A stretch of DNA of 33,188 nt from a virus: positions 1 to 33,188 of the IMG/VR virus record IMGVR_UViG_3300042554_000322. One strand, 5' to 3'. The notes below the pieces were generated by a model. It saw only the letters and a list, made by a program, of their open reading frames with translations, made no database searches and was not told the DNA's origin. Numbering within the stretch: the stretch's first letter is position 1; the number at the start of each line of letters is the position of its first letter. This document shows positions 17,627 through 30,663 of the stretch, piece after piece. The position numbers and the translations under genes are program-made.

Positions 17627-17661
17627 GCCCCGGCCCACTCCTCTCGCCGGGGCTATTTTTT
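17627..17661 (+). terminator. Rho-independent terminator at the convergent junction
   Basis: GCCCCGG (17627-17633) pairs with CCGGGGC (17647-17653), followed by TATTTTTT. It ends + strand transcription and overlaps the last codons of the - strand giant gene. On the - strand no T-run follows the stem, so it should work only in the + direction. Confidence 0.88.
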
Positions 17662-20600
17662 GCCGTAAGGGTCAGGCGGCAGAATCTTCATAAGCATCGG
17701 GCGCAGCTTATCGGTAGTGCGGATACCCCGAACTGACATCGCGCTGGCCTCGATATTGTCCTCAATAGACTTGATGATGGTGTCAGCATCCAACGCGACC
17801 ATCGGATTCTTCTTGTTGAAGTCTTTGAGCGCCCGTACCGCAGCATCCCGGCGGCTTGGTGTGAACTTAGTAGTCAGGTCTTTGAACATCGTTAGCACCT
17901 GACTGCGCTCCAGATTGACCTTGTCGAGTTCAGCCCGTGCCTGAGACACGTCTTCTTGCGTGGCACCGATCTTGGTTGGGCTAAAGCCCGTCGCCGCAAT
18001 CGCAATCTCTTTGGCGCTTAGCTGATCCCGCGTTACTACCTTGTCATCCTTGAGGGTGCGCACACCTTCCTCGTTATACCGCATCGCTGTGGCAAATCCA
18101 CGCACACCGGCGGGTAGCAACATCTCCACACCACGCTGCACGTCACCTGTATTTATGCGGCGCAGTGCTTCGGTTGCGTTAACTGCAAGTCCAACACTTG
18201 GGCCCAGCAAGTTGAAGATAAATTCTTTGAGTGCTTCTGGTTCAGATTTACCCTGTTTGATATCACGGAACCATAGCTGATCCAGTTTGACCCGACCGTG
18301 AAAGTCTATGTCAGTAGCCCACGATACAGGCCCACGCTCAAGTGCCAACCCTAGATTCTTGCCAAACTCTTCACGCAGCCAGTTACGGAAGCGCAGTTTC
18401 GGGTTGCGCTTCTCTGGGTCTTCATCATCCTCAGACAGCAACGACATCGCCCACACAAGTACCGATACCAGAGGTAGACCCAACGTACCGGCAAACATAG
18501 CAGTCATGCCAAGCGTACCGATAAACTTAGTAGCCGCAGTCTTCTTAACCTCGGCGTCTGCGCCCTTGAACATCTCTTTGAAGTTCTTGACCAGATAAAA
18601 CGTAGTCTGCTGCGCGAACGACTTGAACTGCAACAGCACACGGGCAAGGTTGCTACGGAAATACCGTGGCTTGTTGAACTCCGAGTAGTCAAACATCGCC
18701 TCATCAGTCAGACGGGATGCTTCGTTTACTGCTTCCTCGAAGGCGGTCTTGTCATCGCGCTTAGCTTTCTTAGCACGGTCGTATGCTAAGTCGTACGCGG
18801 TCATGAACATCACTTCGCGGTTGATCTTCTCGCTGTGATGGAACAGGTAGCTAATAGCGTTGAGCGCAGTCATCGTAGACCCGCTGTACTTGTCTGACGA
18901 CGTGCGTGAAAGTTGCAGGGTGTCGTAAGTCAGCGTGGTGTCAATCTTACCCCGACGCATAGCCTCCATGTACGCCTGTTGACGGTGCCCAGTCAGTTTA
19001 GATAGCAGGGTCGGGAATGTGTACTTGCCATCTTTATCAGTCACGCCCACTGACTTGAAGATGTTCATATTCTTAGCAAGTGCTAAGTTAGCCCGTGGGC
19101 CGAACTCTCCGTTTAGTACTGGCATGCCGAACACAGCCAGACCTGTCAGGTTGGTAATAGCCGAAGCAGGTGCACTCATGTAGTACACAAAGCTTGCTGT
19201 ACCCAGCGTATTAGCTAGGCGTGTAGCAAACGCGTTCGACGGCTCAGGCGACAAAACTGCATCAATCCTGTCCTTCATCTCACGGTAGATCGGCTTGTAC
19301 AGGTAATCCCGCTGAGGCTTGCCCTTAGTTGCATCCCAAGCGCGGTCTAGGGCTTTGCGTATCTTATCGCCGTACTCGATCTTGGCAAGCTGCACCGACG
19401 TATGGAAGCTGGACTTGGCAAAGTTGCGCAGTGCATCTGCGCGGAAGCCCGCTGTGCCCTTACGATGTAAGAAGTGCTTACGGAAGTTCTGCTCAGGCAA
19501 TGTCGAGAAGTAAAGCTGATACACCTCATCACGCAGCCGAGATTTTTCTTTAGCCGCTTCCTCGTCCGTAGTGATGAGACTAAACTTAGCGCCGTCAATA
19601 AGGTCGGCTATATCCTTCACCATCCTCGAGTTGCGCATGCCCTCGTCGATAGCTTCCATATAGTTATCGCCCATACCGAACTGATCGGCATCGGCTTTTA
19701 GCTTTTCCAAAGGTATACCAAGCTCTTTAGCCCGCTGACGCACGAAAAAGTTCCGCTCACGTGCGTCTTCGAACATGTAGTACTCCATGTCTTTGCTACG
19801 TGTGCTACCTATACGCACCCAGTATTTACCCTCACGGACGAGCGGGAAGTAAGGCTCAGGTAGGTTCTCGAAGTCTTTTTCTAGCTTGGCGAGTAGCTTC
19901 TTGCGTGTGTCCTCGTCTACCGTCGTAGCCGATATACGATCTACAAGGATTTGCTTGTAGCGCAGGAACCGCGCTTTGTAGAAATCTCTGATCTTGTTGT
20001 AGAGCGCCTTACCATCCGGGCCCAACGACTCATACATCTCAGTGAGTGTCTTGGATTTATCCGGTGTCACCGATGGGTCTACTTGGTTAATCGTAGTCAG
20101 GTGAATCAGGCGGTTCAACGTGCGATACTTGCCGGGATTGGCTTGCTGCCACTGATGCCACTCTTTTGCCATCTGAGCAGTCTCGTCCAACATCTCGGTC
20201 TTGGCACCGTTCATGTCCTCAGCAAGACGAATCACGTTATCAAGTAACGGCTTACCATCCGCATCGGTCATCGCCTTTGCTGCTTCAAGTTCAGTCAGCT
20301 GCCGTGTAGTCAGCGCACCTAGAAAAACAGAGCGTTGTTCATCCCCGGTGCCGTTATAGATGTCGGAGACCACGTTCTTGAAGTCATCCCAGCCACGCAC
20401 TTTAATGAGCTGCCCGATGATGGTCAGGTTTTCTTCCGGCGCAGACAAGGGCTGCTTGATGTTGTCAGCTTTCTGCTTGCCTTCTTTGCCCGCTTTCTTA
20501 GCAGCTTGTACCTCCGCAGGTGTAGCTATGATGGCGTTCGCATCAATCGGCAACTTCATGCTTAGCACAGCATCAGTAGAGATTATTAGGTCTTGTAACG

Positions 20601-23565
20601 CCGACTGATACTGCTCCGCCATATTAAATAGCTTGCGGATGCCTTGTACAAACTTGGTGAAGAACGACGTGCCTTTGACATCGCCGGGGATGTTTGCCAA
20701 GAACGACTGCATAACCTTGTCAGTCAGGCCATACGACACGAACTCGCGGATGTCGGTAAATGCACCGTTCCTATATAACCCATCGAGGGACTCGTTAGAG
20801 CGCCCGTCAGATTTAATTTTTAGGTAGACAGACCCTGCGCGGTTCATAGCCTGACGCATCACAGACACAAAAGCCTGTAACGGTATGTCGCGGTCTAGCC
20901 CTTTCTCAGTTAGTGCTAGTGCGTAATCAAGCTTTTTGCTTGTCGCGGCGTGCAATGCCTCATGGAGCACCACCGTGTTGTTGGTACCCTGCACGTCACC
21001 GAAGGATGTATCGCGGACATAGATCACGTCTTGGTAATACACACCCTGCGTCGTATCCGTCATTGCGTTTGCAACAACGTCCGGTATCTTAGTGTTGGGG
21101 CCGATTACTACAAACTTCACGCCCTTGACCGCAGATAGTAGGCGCTGAGCAAGCAACTTCTCGAACGCATTACCCTTGTTGATTATGTAGCGCAGAGCTT
21201 GCTGCGCATCGGTCATCTGCTCAAAGGCCGCATCTGGCGCAGTTACTGAAGAAATCGGTAAACGCGTGGACTTGAGGACTGTGACCCCTTCAGCAGAGGC
21301 TTTTTCTGCATACATGGCTTCGAATTCGGCACGCTCTTCTGGTGTGAAGTTAGCAACAGCATCAATAGCTAACTGCCGCGCTTTCCACGGCTTACCATTA
21401 GGCTGCGTCAAGTCTTTGCGCTTTGACAGTCCAAACAGGGCTAACTTAGCCTGACGCAGTTCCGCCTGCCGTTGCGCTTCTCCTGCGATAGCTAGTGCTA
21501 TTGCTCGCTCGTCTTTGAAACCTTCAGCTTCCATAGCTTCGGGCGTGACAGGCGTAGAGAGTTTTTGCAAGGCGGTGATAGCCTTGTTGGCCGCAGTAGT
21601 CAGCGCCTTGTTACGGCGCATCTGTTCTTGCTGGGCACCTACATCCTTACGATTGACCGTCGCAGCTACCGCAGATTCAGCAGCTTCGTTTGTGGCTGTC
21701 TCTAGTTCGGTTGCGGCAGGGGCTGCTTGTTGCGGTCTTTCTTCTTTTGCTTCGACGGCTTCAGTGGTTTCAGCGACACTGGGTTCCTCCGTTATGACTT
21801 CTTCAGGGGTTGGTGTTGTTTCTTGCTGTAAACTTGTAATAGGCACGGAGCGCAGAACCTCGCCCATTTCGTCTTTTATACTTATATCTGCGCTATTACC
21901 CGAAGTGCTTAGTATCGTAACCGGAGTGCTACCCCCAAGCTCATTTAAGATTGCGGGGCCCGGTACTAATTCAGCAGGTTGTTCTAATCCTTGATTAGCC
22001 GCAGCAGCAAGTGATGTTTCCAGCGCTTCGGCATCGGTAGGCGATACAGCAGGTGCGGCTTCTCCCAGAGCTTCACTAGGAACAGCACTAGGTACGGTAG
22101 CAGCAGGGGTAGTAGTAATAGCTTCACTTGGCGCTCCTTCTAATGCAGTTGGCTGTACTCCCGCTCCAGCGACAGGCTCACCAGCAAGTTGTGTAGCAAT
22201 ATCCAATCCACTTGCGAGAGATGCTTCAACTCCTCCGGTAACATCGGGGGCTCCAATACCAGACACTCCAGCGCTAGGCTCAACTCCTGTGGCGACAGGT
22301 TCTGTAGGTTGAGTGACATCGGCGACTCCTCTCGTGTCAACGGGTATCTGGAATATGCCAAATTTGCCATCCTCCAATTCCTGAACGGCAAAGTTCTCGT
22401 TAGGACGATTGAGTTTTAAAAGTCTTGTACGCTCTTGCGCAGCTTCAGGAGTATCGAATGCAAAGAGTGGTTCTTCCGCAGCTGGTGTAGGCGTAACGAC
22501 TGCGCCGGGTTCTGCCGTAGAAGCTGCGATTTCTTCTTTGATTTGTCTATCTTGGTCTTCTAAATCGCGCTCATCACCAGCAAGTTTTTTAGCGGCGCGG
22601 GTTTGTAGTACACGGCTAGTCGCACCCATCGGGCCACCAAGCAGCAATGCACCACCTGCGGCTTCTAAGTATTCTTTAGCAGCGGTTGGGTCAGTGAACG
22701 GATTAATCTCCAGCCCAGCCTGCCAACGCTCTAGTAGTTGTTGCGAGACTTCTTGTGGGACTTCAAAGGCGATACCCTTCGCAGCCCCCGTAGCCACAGC
22801 ACGACGGTAAGCACCGGGGCGTGTAGCTGACTCAACGATTTCCATCGCCGCTCTATCTGCGGCTGCTTTACCCTCTAGGCCGACTAACTGACCTAACGGC
22901 TTGAAGAACTTAAACCCAAAGATGTCGAGCGCAGTTTGTCCCGTGGCGGCTGCACTAGCAGTCAGACGGTTGATGTCCTCGCCCTCTTTGCCACGCGCCT
23001 TCTGCTCTTCTTTTTGGCGGGCGATGTTGTCTGCAATATACGAACCCAACGCCGTAATACCGTAAGCGGCGGTGCCAGCAAGTGCAGCGGGTACAGCAGC
23101 AGGTGCAGCAAAAGCGGCAGCGGCACCAGCCCCCATCGCCGGAGCCATTGCGCCAAACGACGTACCCGCAACTTCCTTGAACTTATCGTAGGTCTTGCTT
23201 AGCGCGTCGCCGTAGTTACCTTGGCGGAAGGCTTCGCCTATGTCGCTAAACTCAGTCTGCTTGTATTCTTCAGCAGCTTTCTGTCTAGCAGCGAGCAACT
23301 CCTCGGTAGACTTAGCTTGGTCTCCGACCCCAAAGAATAGCTTGGCGGCAGGTGCAGCAGTCTCCACACGTTCTCTTAGTGCAGACGTAAACGACCCAGT
23401 GAAACCGGGTTCCTCTTTAGTGCGGGCATCGATAAACGGAACCGCCGTAGAAGGGTCAAAGCCCCCCGTGCGAGGAGCTTCTATTTCTAATGCCGCAGTT
23501 GAGGGGTCAAACGAAAACCCCCGCGTCGTTTCTACGGGACGTGCTGTAGATGGATCGAAAGCCAT
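17653..23565 (-). CDS. Giant internal virion / ejection protein with HEALH metallopeptidase motif (1970 aa)
   Basis: The largest gene here. Residues 1-41 hold three FDPSTA repeats (at 3, 19, 36). Residues about 135-180 are Ala/Gly-rich and hydrophobic, as in membrane-active virion proteins. An Ala/Pro/Glu/Thr-rich low-complexity stretch (about 350-640) follows. A zincin motif LHEALHAAT (H868, E869, H872) lies in the middle. The C-terminal 600 residues resemble large polyvalent (LPD/PLxRFG-type) phage proteins, with LLQFKSFAQQTTFYLVKN and a C-terminal helical domain. By size and last position in the late operon it resembles a T7 gp16-type ejection protein; the peptidase might cut the host envelope or mature the virion. 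The start is weak in Shine-Dalgarno and follows the previous stop by five bases, suggesting coupling. Confidence 0.8.
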   Translation of the reverse strand: MAFDPSTARPVETTRGFSFDPSTAALEIEAPRTGGFDPSTAVPFIDARTKEEPGFTGSFTSALRERVETAAPAAKLFFGVGDQAKSTEELLAARQKAAEEYKQTEFSDIGEAFRQGNYGDALSKTYDKFKEVAGTSFGAMAPAMGAGAAAAFAAPAAVPAALAGTAAYGITALGSYIADNIARQKEEQKARGKEGEDINRLTASAAATGQTALDIFGFKFFKPLGQLVGLEGKAAADRAAMEIVESATRPGAYRRAVATGAAKGIAFEVPQEVSQQLLERWQAGLEINPFTDPTAAKEYLEAAGGALLLGGPMGATSRVLQTRAAKKLAGDERDLEDQDRQIKEEIAASTAEPGAVVTPTPAAEEPLFAFDTPEAAQERTRLLKLNRPNENFAVQELEDGKFGIFQIPVDTRGVADVTQPTEPVATGVEPSAGVSGIGAPDVTGGVEASLASGLDIATQLAGEPVAGAGVQPTALEGAPSEAITTTPAATVPSAVPSEALGEAAPAVSPTDAEALETSLAAAANQGLEQPAELVPGPAILNELGGSTPVTILSTSGNSADISIKDEMGEVLRSVPITSLQQETTPTPEEVITEEPSVAETTEAVEAKEERPQQAAPAATELETATNEAAESAVAATVNRKDVGAQQEQMRRNKALTTAANKAITALQKLSTPVTPEAMEAEGFKDERAIALAIAGEAQRQAELRQAKLALFGLSKRKDLTQPNGKPWKARQLAIDAVANFTPEERAEFEAMYAEKASAEGVTVLKSTRLPISSVTAPDAAFEQMTDAQQALRYIINKGNAFEKLLAQRLLSAVKGVKFVVIGPNTKIPDVVANAMTDTTQGVYYQDVIYVRDTSFGDVQGTNNTVVLHEALHAATSKKLDYALALTEKGLDRDIPLQAFVSVMRQAMNRAGSVYLKIKSDGRSNESLDGLYRNGAFTDIREFVSYGLTDKVMQSFLANIPGDVKGTSFFTKFVQGIRKLFNMAEQYQSALQDLIISTDAVLSMKLPIDANAIIATPAEVQAAKKAGKEGKQKADNIKQPLSAPEENLTIIGQLIKVRGWDDFKNVVSDIYNGTGDEQRSVFLGALTTRQLTELEAAKAMTDADGKPLLDNVIRLAEDMNGAKTEMLDETAQMAKEWHQWQQANPGKYRTLNRLIHLTTINQVDPSVTPDKSKTLTEMYESLGPDGKALYNKIRDFYKARFLRYKQILVDRISATTVDEDTRKKLLAKLEKDFENLPEPYFPLVREGKYWVRIGSTRSKDMEYYMFEDARERNFFVRQRAKELGIPLEKLKADADQFGMGDNYMEAIDEGMRNSRMVKDIADLIDGAKFSLITTDEEAAKEKSRLRDEVYQLYFSTLPEQNFRKHFLHRKGTAGFRADALRNFAKSSFHTSVQLAKIEYGDKIRKALDRAWDATKGKPQRDYLYKPIYREMKDRIDAVLSPEPSNAFATRLANTLGTASFVYYMSAPASAITNLTGLAVFGMPVLNGEFGPRANLALAKNMNIFKSVGVTDKDGKYTFPTLLSKLTGHRQQAYMEAMRRGKIDTTLTYDTLQLSRTSSDKYSGSTMTALNAISYLFHHSEKINREVMFMTAYDLAYDRAKKAKRDDKTAFEEAVNEASRLTDEAMFDYSEFNKPRYFRSNLARVLLQFKSFAQQTTFYLVKNFKEMFKGADAEVKKTAATKFIGTLGMTAMFAGTLGLPLVSVLVWAMSLLSEDDEDPEKRNPKLRFRNWLREEFGKNLGLALERGPVSWATDIDFHGRVKLDQLWFRDIKQGKSEPEALKEFIFNLLGPSVGLAVNATEALRRINTGDVQRGVEMLLPAGVRGFATAMRYNEEGVRTLKDDKVVTRDQLSAKEIAIAATGFSPTKIGATQEDVSQARAELDKVNLERSQVLTMFKDLTTKFTPSRRDAAVRALKDFNKKNPMVALDADTIIKSIEDNIEASAMSVRGIRTTDKLRPMLMKILPPDPYGKK

Positions 23566-23570
23566 AGCGG

Positions 23571-26261
23571 TTAAACCGGCTGGTAGGATTTAGGGTCTTT
23601 AGGATCACCGCCTATATATTTAGCTCTGTTGCCGTTTGCATCTGTGAAAATTTGCCCCGGTTGTGGCTTAGTACTCCCAGCTGCACTTGCGCTTGCCCCC
23701 GCGTCCGGTTGCGCCCCACCCCCGCCGAGTGCGGTTTTGTAGCGCTTTTCGGCATCCGCTAGTTTTGTGCGTAGGCTCGCCACACTTTCGCCCGCTGGCA
23801 ACGGCAGCCCTAATTCCGCATTTGTCAGCATTTTGTTGATAGCGGTTATTTCGTCTTGGATTACGTTAGCCGCGCCTGTACCCGCACGAAGACTTGCATA
23901 TGGATCAACCTTAAACATCTTAGCGTAGTCTTCCGTAGCTATACGTTTGAGCTGCGCCAACTCTTGTTGGTTAGGGTTACGTCCGTTTGCTTTAGTAAAG
24001 TCAGCAACCGCGCCCTCAATGTAGTTCCCAAGCGCTTGACGATTAACGTCAGTCTGACCCGCACGCTGTACAGCAAACCCTTCACGTGCAATCTGTAACT
24101 GCTGCGCCAGTTTTTTATCTTCCTGTGCAATGTTCGCCAACTTTTCTGTCTTGCTGGCATCGAGTGCGTACATGTTTTGTTGGATGCCTGCAATGCGATC
24201 CGCAGATTTCTGCGCCTCGGCGTATTTACCGCGCTTATCAAGCCGCTCATAACGTGCAGTCTCTATGCGTAGCTTATCTGCCTCACGCTTGGCATCGCGC
24301 TTAAGTTTGTCGAGTTCTTTGACGTTGCGCCCAACAATTGCACCTGCTTTACCAAACGCAGTAGCAAACGGAACGGATTGACCGAAAGCCTCCATAGCTT
24401 CGAATGCCATACCCGCTTTAGACATCGCCTCGGACTCAGGGCTAATCTCTGAAGACTTAGCAAGCTTTTCAGACAGCTCAATAGACTTATCTGGACCGAG
24501 GAATCTTTCTTGTTCGGCTAAGCTGGCTTCAATATCTTTAGCCCGATCTGTCTCTGTGCGGAAAGCTTTCAATGGGTCTAAAGCACGAAGGTTTGCTATG
24601 TCGTCGGGCTTTGCCTCAACCTTATTACCTTTAGCGAAAGCGACGATACCGCCACGCGCCATCTCAGGCATCTCTTCACGCTCGCCTACTGCGGTGTCAC
24701 CAAACATAGTCTCAGATAGCGGAGCCGCAGCGATACCCGAGTCTGCACCCATATCAGCGGCGATCATCTCGTCCTTGATGGTAGTCTCAGGGATAGACTC
24801 AGCGAGGATGTTGGCGTTGCGTAGTCGAGCGTTTAACGTCTGCTGTTCCTGTACTAATGCGAATGTAGTTGCGTCACTAGCGTTTTGCTTAACGGCCTCA
24901 AGCTGCTCTTCCGACATGCCATTCAGCGCCGCACGTAGCTTGTTGATGTCCATCGTGTTAGGCACAGAGCCTTGGGGCTGCGGAGCTGCATCAGCAATAC
25001 CACCTTCAGGCACGCCACCCTCTGCGTAACCCTTGACGATGCCGCCCTCCTTGAACCCACCCTTACCTAACTGCGAAAGGCCGTACGCACCCAGACCCAT
25101 CTGCGCAATTTGTGAGGATAGCGGAGGCGGGGCTTGGAACTGCTGATACGAGACTTGAGATAGCGGGACACCACGTAGGATGTCCGACAAGAATGATAGT
25201 TGCTGCTGCTCGTAGCCACGCTGACCCAAAAAGTCTTGATAAGCTTGACTGAGTTTTTGCTGGTCGAGCTGTTGCTGTTGAGCGCCCGCCGCAGCTTGAG
25301 CACGCATCGCTGCTTCCTCCTGACCAAACTGTTGTTGACCGAGCGCACCTAACTGCCCAGCGGCAGCGAGCTGCTGTTGCAGACCCTGCATGCCATAACC
25401 AGCACCAAATTGACGGGACTGCTCCGACATGCGTTGGGCTTCTGTGCCGTAACGTGCAGCGGCTTCCGCAGCCGTCATACCTTGACCAAAACCAAACTGA
25501 CGCGACTGCTCAGTCCCTTGCTGTGCCTGCATATACGCTTGCTGGTTAGCCAGTTGTGCTTGCAGTCTAGCCTGCTGTTCCGCGTTGAACTGCTGCGTAG
25601 CACGATCAAATGCTGCTTGACCCCCACGAGCTTGAATATCACCCAATTGCATACCGAGGTTACGCTGGCGTTCCGCTTCGACTAAGCCTTGACGAGACCC
25701 ACCAAACGCACCTTGCTGTACGGCCTGCGCTTGTTGCTTTTGCCCCAAGATGTCGGACTGACGCATAGCTTCACGTTTTTCAATGTTCGTGACAGCTTGT
25801 TGGTACGGCGACATAAAAGCTTCTGCCATACCGGGACGGGTAAAGCTGCTAGTCCGTGCACCCATAATGCCGAATTGCCCCGGTTGATACTGCCCCGGCG
25901 CTTGATATACGTTGGAGAACCCTGTGGGGTCATACCCAGTACCGGCAGCGCGTAGCCCAGCGCCAGCAGCAAGTTGTGACGCCATACCAGTCTGCGCGGT
26001 AGGGCCAAGATTTCCTGCTGCCTCAAACGATTTCTGCTGTAGCGGTTTAAATTCAGCGATGCGCTGCTCGCCGTATGGCTGATAAGGAGTTTTAGAATAG
26101 GCTTCTGCGCGTCCAAGCATCCGCTCGACGGTGGGCCTTGCGTACTCAGGAATAGTTGTAGTGGTCTGTGTGGTGCTAGATGGCTGCGCCTGCCCACCAC
26201 CGCCGGGGTAAAGTCTGCGCCCATCACTGCTGTAACCGTTAAATTTATTCCTGATAATCAT
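23571..26261 (-). CDS. Gln-rich internal virion structural protein (896 aa)
   Basis: I set the start at ATG 26261, which forms an ATGA overlap with the upstream GNAT-like gene and has AGGAGC in front; a longer reading to 26312 is rejected. Residues about 60-380 are Gln/Ala/Gly-rich with imperfect repeats (EQSRQFGFGQGM and EQSRQFGAGYGM). Glycine-loop motifs (GGIVKGYAEGG at about 405, RGGIVAFAKG further on) recur, and a long coiled-coil region fills the C-terminal half. The end reads KYIGGDPKDPKSYQPV. The layout suggests an extended helical ejection protein comparable in position to T7 gp15. Assignment is by composition and order, not by alignment. Confidence 0.65.
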   Translation of the reverse strand: MIIRNKFNGYSSDGRRLYPGGGGQAQPSSTTQTTTTIPEYARPTVERMLGRAEAYSKTPYQPYGEQRIAEFKPLQQKSFEAAGNLGPTAQTGMASQLAAGAGLRAAGTGYDPTGFSNVYQAPGQYQPGQFGIMGARTSSFTRPGMAEAFMSPYQQAVTNIEKREAMRQSDILGQKQQAQAVQQGAFGGSRQGLVEAERQRNLGMQLGDIQARGGQAAFDRATQQFNAEQQARLQAQLANQQAYMQAQQGTEQSRQFGFGQGMTAAEAAARYGTEAQRMSEQSRQFGAGYGMQGLQQQLAAAGQLGALGQQQFGQEEAAMRAQAAAGAQQQQLDQQKLSQAYQDFLGQRGYEQQQLSFLSDILRGVPLSQVSYQQFQAPPPLSSQIAQMGLGAYGLSQLGKGGFKEGGIVKGYAEGGVPEGGIADAAPQPQGSVPNTMDINKLRAALNGMSEEQLEAVKQNASDATTFALVQEQQTLNARLRNANILAESIPETTIKDEMIAADMGADSGIAAAPLSETMFGDTAVGEREEMPEMARGGIVAFAKGNKVEAKPDDIANLRALDPLKAFRTETDRAKDIEASLAEQERFLGPDKSIELSEKLAKSSEISPESEAMSKAGMAFEAMEAFGQSVPFATAFGKAGAIVGRNVKELDKLKRDAKREADKLRIETARYERLDKRGKYAEAQKSADRIAGIQQNMYALDASKTEKLANIAQEDKKLAQQLQIAREGFAVQRAGQTDVNRQALGNYIEGAVADFTKANGRNPNQQELAQLKRIATEDYAKMFKVDPYASLRAGTGAANVIQDEITAINKMLTNAELGLPLPAGESVASLRTKLADAEKRYKTALGGGGAQPDAGASASAAGSTKPQPGQIFTDANGNRAKYIGGDPKDPKSYQPV

Positions 26262-26662
26262 AATTTTGCTCCTACAACCCTGTACTTTTCCGAAAGACCG
26301 AATCGTTGCCACAATCTAGTTGCTGACTCACGTGAGGCACCCTCTATATAGGTTGCGCCAAACGCTTTGAGTAACTCTGTGAACTGCGCGTACGTTTCGT
26401 GGCCTGTAATTAGTTTGCCACCCATCGTGACAATAAAGGCAACCCGATCTTTTGGGCGGTTGTAAAACTGAATCGTTGCAGCACCATGTATAACTTGGTC
26501 GTCGTCAATCGCAACTATAAGTACCCAAGTGCCATTTGTTACGTAAAGCTTAGCGTGTTCAATGTTGTAGTCGTCTTGATACGCCAAGGCCGCATCGATG
26601 AATTCCTCCACCTGCGGCCATAATTGGTTTACATAGTTAACGTCTACGTGTTGTATCTTCAT
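26258..26662 (-). CDS. GNAT-like small internal virion protein (134 aa)
   Basis: The sequence resembles a compact GNAT acetyltransferase fold: an N-terminal helix pair, strands WVLIVAIDDD and GAATIQFYN, then VAFIVTMGG, a helix (YAQFTELLKAFGA), and a final strand/helix (RLWQRFGLSEKYRVVGAKL). Similar short GNAT-like proteins lie among the internal virion genes of podoviruses, in the position of T7 gp13. An acetyl-CoA-binding RxxGxG/A loop is not evident, so it may be structural rather than catalytic. Both ends form ATGA overlaps with neighbours. Confidence 0.65.
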   Translation of the reverse strand: MKIQHVDVNYVNQLWPQVEEFIDAALAYQDDYNIEHAKLYVTNGTWVLIVAIDDDQVIHGAATIQFYNRPKDRVAFIVTMGGKLITGHETYAQFTELLKAFGATYIEGASRESATRLWQRFGLSEKYRVVGAKL

Positions 26663-28524: not shown

Positions 28525-30663
28525 CTACCTCCTGCCGTCCGGTCTGACATCAAGACGCGGGATACCTAGCTGCCACTGCGTACCCAACGTATCTGACTCA
28601 ACTTTGAACGCCATCTGCCGCCCACGCACCCGGCTATACACAATCTCAGTAAACTCTTGCACGCTGTATACCTGCTGCCCAGCGTAAGACTGCGCAGATT
28701 GAATTGTTGGGCTTGGCGATACACCATACCCAGAGCCGGGGTTCTGTCGTGGACGAACTACAAACTTAACGCGAGGCGTCTCTGGCGCGGGTGTAGTCGA
28801 ATTATCAAACGTAATGTCAGGCAAGATGCGCCACACAAACCCGTAGTTATGCCCATCCCCAATATCAAAATCGGACGATTGAATGTATGCGCTGATTGCG
28901 CTAGGCGGGTTGGTGCTACCGTCATCGACCGCAGCTTCGTGATACACCAATAAGTTACCGCTAGTTGCCGCCATCGGAAATTGACGTAGTGGGCTATCCA
29001 GCCAAGCCGTTCTATCCAGCGTGCCGTAATACCAAACACGGTCGAGGTAGTTGAAGATCACATAGCGATCGATGACATCGGAGTTAGCCGAGCAATAAAA
29101 CCACCAGATTTCAGAATAGCCTTCATTGGTACCAGCAAAGAACTGTTCCTGTTGATCACGGTTAATATCGCCAAACACGAACTGACGCAGTGAGCACGGT
29201 AGCGTTTCAACTCGACCAGAGTAAACATAAAACTTATCTACTCCCATCCAGTAAATAACACCAGCAGCCGTTGCCATCGCGTTCTGCGAAGCAATAGATA
29301 TGTTGTCCGCGAGTAGCGTGAAGCCCCACACCAGCGGGGGGCCAAAATATTGCATGGAGTAGATAGCGGCATCAGTCCAAACGATAATTTCTTGGCGGGT
29401 TTGTAACGCCCCTACAATGAATGAGCCGTGCGAAAGACGGAAATCACCCGCTTGGTTGGTGGGCAGTGGCTCCCAATCCGTATAGCTTTCTTGCGCAGTC
29501 CAACGAATCTGCATCGGGTCAAGCTCAGTCGTCGCATACGTGCCACTCGGGTCATTACAACCAAATGCAATCACAATACGAGAGGCATCCGACACCATAA
29601 TCTCGTTAACTTGCGACGGCGTATAAGTGTTAGACACAATAACGCCCCGTGTGCCGTAGGCAGGATTAGAACCCGAACCGGGTTGCCATAAATAAATAGC
29701 GCCGCCACGAGGGTTGAATAGCAAATCTTCGCCAAAATTGGACTGGCTCCATAAGCGTAGTGATACTTCAACCCCTATTGCACTAGGAAATCCTTCGCCC
29801 CAGCCGGGGAAGCCTGTGGCTTGTACAACCAAAGCGCCGTCACTATGAGATGCAGCAGTTGTGCCATCCGCACCACGGGTGCAGCCAGTAAAGTCGGTCG
29901 AGGTTTTGCCTGAGTAGGTAATGTATTCGCCATCAATCCATATAGCACCGCTAGTAGTAAACGCTGTTGTGCTTACCACGGTAATAGTCGTTGCTGAATT
30001 ATTAATCCCGCCGTTCAACGTAGACGACGAAGTACCCGGAATATATCCGCCCCACGGCGAAACGCCCCAACCAGTACCAACTGTGTTGATAGCAGGGGCT
30101 GTATTAATTTGATACGCCGCATCTGTTGCGCCCCCACCATCACCCGAATCCGATGCATTTGCCGCAACAGACGAAGTAATAGTGTATTGCGTCCCAGTCA
30201 ATACAGACTGAATTTGAAACTCGGAGTTTAGGATCGCAGCAGTGATATTGCCGCCAAGACTTACCGCACTTGAGAAAGTAACGAAGTCGCCCGCTTGTAA
30301 TCCTGAAATACCTGTATCTGTTACGGTAATCGTAGTTGAGCCGTTAGTAGCGGCAAACGTAGTTGTGTTCGTTGTTGTCGAGCGGATCGGCGTGATGTCA
30401 TAGTACGCACCGCCAGATTCAATATAAAATTTGAGGTTGGTGCCAACACCAGCGAGATTAAAACCTTTAAGCGTTACCCAGTTCCACAGCGAACGGCAGA
30501 CACCAAGAAAGGTGTTGTACGACAGCGCCGCCCAGCCGCCGATCTTCTCTGGGTAGCCAGAACGAAAGCGCACTTTGTCGCACTCAAACCAACCACCCTC
30601 GTTGGCAAGCGTCGTGCCTTCGCGGTTTACACCGGGGCGGAACTGTAGCTTCTGCAACGGCAT
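28525..30663 (-). CDS. Tail hub / DNA-stabilisation protein (beta-propeller type, 712 aa)
   Basis: The start has AAGGAATAGCC upstream. The protein begins QFRPGVNREGTTLANEGGW and has repeated beta elements typical of a podovirus tail nozzle or P22 gp10-like packaged-DNA stabilisation protein (TDAAIYSMQYFGPP, ADNISIASQNAMA, GVIYWMGVDKFYVYSG). Two inserted beta modules are visible, one near residues 95-185 (NGSTTITVTDTG) and one near 215-280 (NNSATTITV to DGEYITYSG, ending RGADGTTAASHSDGA). The C-terminus reads QLGIPRLDVRPDGRR. Its place before the ejection cassette fits a tail-tube role equivalent to T7 gp12 or P22 gp10. Confidence 0.75.
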   Translation of the reverse strand: MPLQKLQFRPGVNREGTTLANEGGWFECDKVRFRSGYPEKIGGWAALSYNTFLGVCRSLWNWVTLKGFNLAGVGTNLKFYIESGGAYYDITPIRSTTTNTTTFAATNGSTTITVTDTGISGLQAGDFVTFSSAVSLGGNITAAILNSEFQIQSVLTGTQYTITSSVAANASDSGDGGGATDAAYQINTAPAINTVGTGWGVSPWGGYIPGTSSSTLNGGINNSATTITVVSTTAFTTSGAIWIDGEYITYSGKTSTDFTGCTRGADGTTAASHSDGALVVQATGFPGWGEGFPSAIGVEVSLRLWSQSNFGEDLLFNPRGGAIYLWQPGSGSNPAYGTRGVIVSNTYTPSQVNEIMVSDASRIVIAFGCNDPSGTYATTELDPMQIRWTAQESYTDWEPLPTNQAGDFRLSHGSFIVGALQTRQEIIVWTDAAIYSMQYFGPPLVWGFTLLADNISIASQNAMATAAGVIYWMGVDKFYVYSGRVETLPCSLRQFVFGDINRDQQEQFFAGTNEGYSEIWWFYCSANSDVIDRYVIFNYLDRVWYYGTLDRTAWLDSPLRQFPMAATSGNLLVYHEAAVDDGSTNPPSAISAYIQSSDFDIGDGHNYGFVWRILPDITFDNSTTPAPETPRVKFVVRPRQNPGSGYGVSPSPTIQSAQSYAGQQVYSVQEFTEIVYSRVRGRQMAFKVESDTLGTQWQLGIPRLDVRPDGRR

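Follow-up and report, generated by a model that had tools for sequence, protein, structure and literature searches.

What might join a giant ejection protein to the protein encoded just before it? The question is raised by the IMG/VR virus record IMGVR_UViG_3300042554_000322, analysed over its full 33,188 nucleotides (the window), in which a minus-strand open reading frame (ORF) at 17653-23565 opens with three copies of the peptide FDPSTA. The ORF is genuine on translation, with an ATG start and 1970 amino acids (aa), and its product, P0001, holds the tetramer position as the last of the ejection proteins in a podovirus ejectosome. The first-pass annotation had suggested that the FDPSTA repeat may serve to dock the protein to the neck or core, and had named a membrane-active-looking segment, an LHEALHAAT motif and a polyvalent-protein-like C-terminus; all of these features were seen, the segment as an Ala-rich hydrophobic stretch near residue 144. 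The docking idea is supported and can be sharpened, in that co-occurrence indicates the C-terminus of the preceding ejection protein, which holds the octameric-core position, as the likely partner. Our favoured reading, to which we assign a probability of roughly 0.78, is that P0001 is a tetramer-position ejection protein carrying one of several interchangeable tag:mini-domain pairs that would bind directly, together with a zincin domain that is probably peptidase-active.

Tag classes and the C-termini that precede them

The FDPSTA copies begin at residues 3, 19 and 36, at spacings of 16 and 17 residues. Their codons are TTC GAT CCA TCT ACA GCA, TTT GAC CCC TCA ACT GCG and TTT GAC CCT TCT ACG GCG, with copies 1 and 2 differing synonymously at all six codons. 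A recent duplication of the repeat is ruled out by these differences, and the synonymous divergence therefore indicates that the peptide is maintained by selection. A self-repeat shuffle test of the first 75 residues of P0001 alone gave p = 0.017. Among 71 mixed proteins, made up of giants and some 20 further virion proteins and including eight that had been fetched by the FDPSTA repeat itself, 32 N-termini reached p <= 0.01 in this test, whereas internal control windows from these proteins gave 2 and 1.

One C-terminal mini-domain, of about 25 residues in the case of FDPSTA, was found per tag class among the listed C-termini of upstream genes. The pairs (tag, then upstream C-terminus) were: FDPSTA, GxxYTDANGNxAxY; PWxx[WYF], GYxFKGGDPxxxxxW; NPFAx[YF], FDxxFGxGAAxxxLG; FSFEEA/FTLEEA, YNTARGPARWNG; GWETIV, GGQKYEPDK; and WWEDAP, RFIAPDGT. 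In a cross-table of 1,011 non-identical adjacent ORF pairs, all 42 tagged pairs were cognate and none was mismatched. The sole domain lacking a tag (L138) preceded a wrong-frame ORF, and the true next gene there carries KPWESF twice. FDPSTA was accompanied by the DANGN C-terminus in 13/13 pairs from five clusters, neither body being detectably similar between clusters. Body clusters without detectable mutual similarity numbered five for FDPSTA, seven for PW and three for NPFA, and similar bodies across different tag classes were common. Judged from sequence, then, the tag types are interchangeable; each goes with one particular upstream C-terminal mini-domain, and an exchange at the gene junction takes both halves with it.

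Predictions of the pairing were fixed in writing ahead of scans of new loci. From tag to domain, an FGxGAA C-terminus lay upstream of the NPFA tag in 10 of 11 cases, and APWER was paired with GYxFKGGDP in three new contigs (L125, L127 and L128). The N-terminus of L125 holds a single APWERNW plus an SPADLLP motif resembling the L012 tag described below, as if two tag types were mixed. From domain to tag, the prediction held in nine annotated phages, namely EBPR podovirus 2, the Pseudomonas phages USP_18 and D14S, the Aeromonas phage BUCT695, the Bradyrhizobium and Rhizobium phages ppBeUSDA76-2 and RHph_I3_11, DSL-LC05 and two Zobellviridae. In bacterial genomes, where prophage status was judged by the gene pair alone, the scan returned 34 C-terminal matches, one of them without sequence beyond it. 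A PW tag was present on the next gene at 31 of the 33 evaluable loci, in at least two copies at 28. Two PW motifs also occurred in 3 of 662 other pairs, all three being the true next gene overlooked by the pairing rule, so that no true background case was found among the 662.

A scan for YTDANGN mostly listed unrelated proteins (fibres and others). Among the C-terminal matches listed, the full domain pattern was recognised by eye in five (L193, L195, L203, L264 and L265), and the next gene was FDP-type tagged in all five, with the variants FDPSSI/FDPDNV in L195 and FDPSSA/FNPSSA in L265. An EWWEDAP scan returned close relatives only and was excluded from independent support. In two scans, every doubled FDP[ST]TA lay at the very N-terminal end of a large ORF, and at mapped loci with enough flank the ORF came after a gp15-like gene in the tube-ejection array. 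FDPSTA repeated at a 17-residue period had no exact match in bacterial genomes. Restriction of FDPSTA to one phage lineage is ruled out by the doubled-tag scans and the mapped loci.

Close relatives share one body under different heads: FDP[ST]TA three times in L006, FSFE[ED]A three times in L007 and VPxxLLPxxL three times in L012, each head being followed by FIDARTKTAEPTPE.QSVFRQVAD. FDPSTA as a fixed feature of the family is accordingly ruled out, L007 and L012 bearing other tags on the same body. A natural exchange is seen in the Pseudomonas phages D14S and D14I (P. aeruginosa, F116-type), which are 91-97% identical over large parts. Their upstream proteins are 91% identical in DNA up to the last ~27 codons, where D14S has DANGN and D14I has GGNP; the next protein begins with FDP[ST]TA twice or KPWEEF twice, respectively, and high similarity of the giants returns near residue 808-833. 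The KPWEEF tag is visible in LKA5 and D14I and is not visible at the annotated start of the F116 giant (L139:3014, methyltransferase), where the start was probably misplaced or a sequencing error shifted the frame.

The polarity of a pair also appears to be reversible, on the strength of one clear case involving the PW pair: in L132, the upstream protein has APWERNW at its C-terminus and the downstream giant opens with two GYRFVGGDP domains. Such a reversal had been marked for checking before this locus was inspected. Copy number was uneven between the partners. The downstream protein carried two tags in 57 of 64 pairs, three in 6/64 and one in 1/64, and the upstream protein carried one mini-domain in all 64.

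Another head was noted on giants of L022, L025, L027, L074, L076, L084, L017-L019 and L038, which open with a hairpin mini-domain, YxVxGPDGxxYxVEGPxGAS. The C-termini upstream of these giants end in short [GK][WF]-type motifs (W/F-G-type). The arrangement is suggestive of docking in which the giant contributes the domain.

The zincin domain of P0001

The claim of a zincin motif held. HExxH lies at residues 868-872 within NTVVLHEALHAATS, E869 being the motif glutamate. An iterative hidden Markov model search found the domain in 46 ORFs of 80 viral contigs, and among 35 non-redundant copies only H868, E869, H872 and E941 were fully conserved; the rest of the domain was highly variable. No homologue in this set lacked HExxH. 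A separate alignment (A1) had the identical four invariant columns. In an AlphaFold2 model of residues 760-1240, the predicted local distance difference test (pLDDT) was mostly 87-97 across the domain, where three strands lead into a long helix bearing HExxH and E941 sits on a second helix. Around residues 800-960, where the first-pass annotation had proposed to look for a third zinc ligand, E941 is the candidate, and the order of secondary-structure elements fits a zincin. Polyvalent-protein metallopeptidases (MPTases) are described with this layout, an HExxH helix, a second-helix glutamate and a three-stranded core (PMC5512222).

The family profile matched the solved ejection proteins 9sfn 'Internal virion protein' (E 2.8e-28), 8vb2 PhiM1 gp48 (1.6e-18), 23sg gp10 (2e-15) and the N4 virion RNA polymerase (vRNAP; 7e-7, about 1e-6); known zincins gave weak matches (E about 0.008). 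A single-sequence search with the domain matched 9sfn at E 1.4e-7, and the matches of the model in BFVD were phage internal core and vRNAP proteins. By sequence the domain is genuine and of a kind already known, the MPTase domain of phage polyvalent proteins, and P0001 appears to hold the full residue set for an active gluzincin-type site (H868, E869, H872 and E941). Two zincin domains occur in one giant polypeptide at L074:10417-17292 and L024:6073-13644.

The domain probably acts as a virion-carried peptidase. The first-pass annotation had offered two settings for such activity, the host envelope or cytoplasm at DNA entry and the giant itself during assembly. We tentatively favour a role once ejection has taken place, directed at proteins of the host envelope or cytoplasm or at the giant itself, whose C-terminal part would be freed; the catalytic residues are invariant and the domain is found again in structurally solved proteins ejected from virions, although the case is argued from location. 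Self-cleavage during assembly or head maturation seems somewhat doubtful. Iyer et al. (PMC5512222) suggest that polyvalent MPTases process themselves, with P1 DdrB cleaved before packaging, yet the N4 vRNAP, which has a zincin domain, is reported as packaged uncleaved. Of the two, we rate post-ejection action as marginally more probable than processing of the giant by itself inside the capsid. A non-catalytic, structural part in the hub is unlikely: the PhiM1 ejectosome paper covers the gp48 domains and names neither a zinc site nor a protease (PMC11440229), but precisely the four catalytic or ligand positions are invariant in a domain that otherwise varies widely.

Proposed direct docking and its alternatives

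Tag and mini-domain would bind directly, and this contact would anchor every giant subunit to the second ejection protein during core assembly in the head, when the channel re-forms in the periplasm, or at both stages. With two or three tags on every giant and a single domain on the upstream protein, a tetramer could engage a whole octamer (4 x 2 = 8). In PhiM1, a TEP tetramer is stacked on an OEP octamer (PMC11440229), and in T7 the gp15 C-terminal domain is stabilised by a gp16-N 'molecular tape' (PMC8954989); the 2:1 tag ratio would match tetramer-on-octamer stacking. In its general form the proposal is a modular docking code: orthogonal tag:mini-domain pairs, carried as junction cassettes in either polarity, would join consecutive ejection proteins (sometimes a lysozyme) in lytic phages and prophage-like loci of several bacterial phyla, the 2:1 ratio solving the octamer-to-tetramer mismatch. 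We consider this generalisation likely.

The two halves lie within a few hundred bases of each other across a gene junction, and the stretch exchanged between D14S and D14I is contiguous and reaches into the giant. Both facts would suit linkage only, in which recombining cassettes carry the 3' end of one gene along with the 5' end of its downstream neighbour and the peptides never touch. Such an account is very improbable given that cognate pairing survives in clusters where both bodies are undetectably similar, that the FDPSTA copies have diverged synonymously, that polarity is reversed in L132 and that the cross-table holds zero mismatched pairs. It is improbable as well that the two termini bind not each other but some third partner, be it the portal, a scaffold, a further core protein or a host factor. 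Ejection proteins do touch the portal and tail, and the tags resemble short linear motifs able to bind many partners; the one-to-one class match, the polarity reversal and the 2:1 copy ratio would then require an extra coincidence, and for most of the remaining structural genes in FDPSTA phages no relation to the window's own can be recognised.

Several points count against direct docking as favoured here. Since the halves are adjacent in DNA, shared junction history explains part of the co-occurrence within clusters. The regular expressions of the cross-table were drawn up after part of the data had been seen, and because the tag classes were partly defined on those data, the blind tests weigh more. 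Among these, L121 has an NPFA tag and no upstream FGxGAA, and L273 and L287 have the domain with neither a tagged gene nor a giant after it. LUZ19 gp36/gp37 are without such tags, and the device is therefore not universal. In two Zobellviridae (L137:3063-3656 and L140:3080-3754), the gene after the GGDP C-terminus protein, bearing a doubled PW tag, encodes a lysozyme and not a giant, so that the tetramer arithmetic need not hold there; the tagged enzyme suggests a separate lytic enzyme recruited to the ejectosome. For the zincin part of the reading, a Foldseek search of the PDB with the two-domain model gave no significant match.

Gene neighbourhood and known systems

The minus-strand gene order in the window was endolysin, spanin, tail-tube-B-like, a 106-aa ORF, a 492-aa ORF in the gp14 position, GNAT-like, gp15-like and giant (Table 1). 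The order from tail-tube B through gp14-like, GNAT and gp15-like to the giant was shared by the window and the inspected FDPSTA phages with enough flank. Small ORFs resembling the GNAT-like ORF occupy the same place in L089 and L090, and correspond by position in L086 and L088. The gp15-like protein most likely starts at the ATG of MIIRNKFNGY (26261) rather than at the GTG at 26312. Its N-terminus, MIIRNKFNGYxxxGxRLY, is strongly conserved among gp15-like proteins and also heads gp14-like proteins of other phages (window 26261, L005:1386-3584, L061:7316-9496 and L031:9998-11842); it is possibly a second docking or targeting tag.

Table 1. Features of the window discussed in the text, with their coordinates.
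Feature	Position	Strand	Basis
Third ejection protein, T7 gp16 / PhiM1 TEP position, 1970 aa (P0001)	17653..23565	-	ORF, homology, gene order
FDPSTA putative docking tag, copy 1 (residues 3-8)	23542..23559	-	sequence
FDPSTA putative docking tag, copy 2 (residues 19-24)	23494..23511	-	sequence
FDPSTA putative docking tag, copy 3 (residues 36-41)	23443..23460	-	sequence
Cognate C-terminal mini-domain of upstream ejection protein, PGQIFTDANGNRAKYIGGDPKDPKSYQPV	23574..23660	-	tag co-occurrence
Zincin-like metallopeptidase domain (residues about 800-1010)	20536..21168	-	homology, conservation, model
HEALH (HExxH; residues 868-872)	20950..20964	-	sequence, invariant 35/35
E941, candidate third zinc ligand (DIREFVSYGLTD)	20743..20745	-	invariant 35/35
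LPD39 (PF18858; residues 1067-1232)	19870..20367	-	E 3.7e-15
PLxRFG / DarB-like C-terminal region (residues 1238-1954)	17704..19854	-	NF032893 (NCBIfam) E 2e-130, PHROG 10089
Second ejection protein, gp15-like	23571..26261	-	PHROG 4287 DNA ejection protein, E 3e-4
GNAT-like 134-aa ORF within ejection cassette	26258-26662	-	ORF
gp14-like ejection protein candidate, 492 aa	26659..28137	-	position
Tail tubular protein B-like virion protein (marks ejectosome gene order)	28525..30663	-	PHROG 3287, E 7e-58

The 80 contigs named above were those matched with the gp15-like protein as query. Many encode a giant of about 1,900-3,100 aa directly after the gp15-like gene or one gene further, and these giants are mosaics. 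From synteny and homology we infer that P0001 is a virion protein. It lies directly after the gp15-like gene in the tail-tube B-ejection array, and homology to solved ejection proteins was found for its zincin domain only. No peptidoglycan-hydrolase domain was found in it with Pfam, NCBIfam and PHROGs; such a domain is no strict requirement of a gp16-like protein, because the P22 and Sf6 proteins also lack one (PMC8954989).

The polyvalent-like C-terminus was borne out by the LPD39 and PLxRFG matches, zincin, LPD39 and PLxRFG being fused in one ORF beside ejection genes. The model of the tail had a pLDDT of 69.5, and a profile search of the PDB with the tail gave chance-level matches only. Hydrophobic stretches were located at residues 144-162 (Ala-rich, mean Kyte-Doolittle hydropathy 1.5) and 1692-1710 (mean 1.86). 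A block of ~53 residues (about 528-583; DNA about 21817-21984, minus strand) in the ISIKDEMGEVLRSVPITSLQQ region is 85-91% identical to its counterparts in the L001-L005, L019 and L061 giants, although elsewhere the parts of those giants that match P0001 reach only about 33% identity; the block appears to be a recently shared module.

What would be new is the FDPSTA head as a portable tag that predicts an upstream C-terminal mini-domain; the zincin is already known. The tag motifs were not found in the literature searched, whose coverage largely excluded subscription journals and preprints, and within the same coverage no paper was found that brings together ejection proteins and either docking domains or linear motifs. 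If the pairs bind as proposed, they would form a previously unnoticed assembly code common to phages of many bacteria. Such a code bears on the open question of how ejection proteins, described as extremely variable, meet in the capsid and then again in the periplasm. It would identify successive ejection proteins by their termini from sequence alone, despite bodies diverged past recognition, would give a testable reason for the tandem repeats heading many unannotated giant phage proteins, and would supply small orthogonal peptide:domain pairs. D14S and D14I are a natural experiment.

Among known systems, polyvalent-protein MPTases (Iyer et al., 2017; PMC5512222) resemble P0001 in their LPD fusion within late-gene giants; N-terminal tags with C-terminal partners are not described in the portion of its text searched. 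T7 gp16, PhiM1 gp48 and LUZ19 gp37 share the gene position after a gp15/OEP-like protein, and the latter two share the zincin domain. LUZ19 gp37, which at 1337 aa is as long as 9sfn chain G, has HEAVH at 419 and KELVAWGLTD at 495, but lacks tandem N-terminal tags; P0001 differs from all three in its extra LPD39 and PLxRFG tail. The C1 domain of N4 vRNAP is a homologous zincin domain in another virion-ejected giant, although no polymerase was detected in P0001. DarB-like/PLxRFG proteins of F116- and Pavtok-type phages share the C-terminal ~840 residues at 25-28% identity, whereas their methylase/helicase modules and N-termini differ.

A parallel in arrangement is found in polyketide and peptide synthases, in which docking domains at the C-terminus of one subunit recognise the N-terminus of the subunit encoded next. 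There, too, a short motif meets a small domain, in either orientation and in exchangeable pairs. The phage pairs are likened to these by arrangement and not by sequence, and differ in belonging to ejection proteins and in placing at least two copies on the downstream partner.

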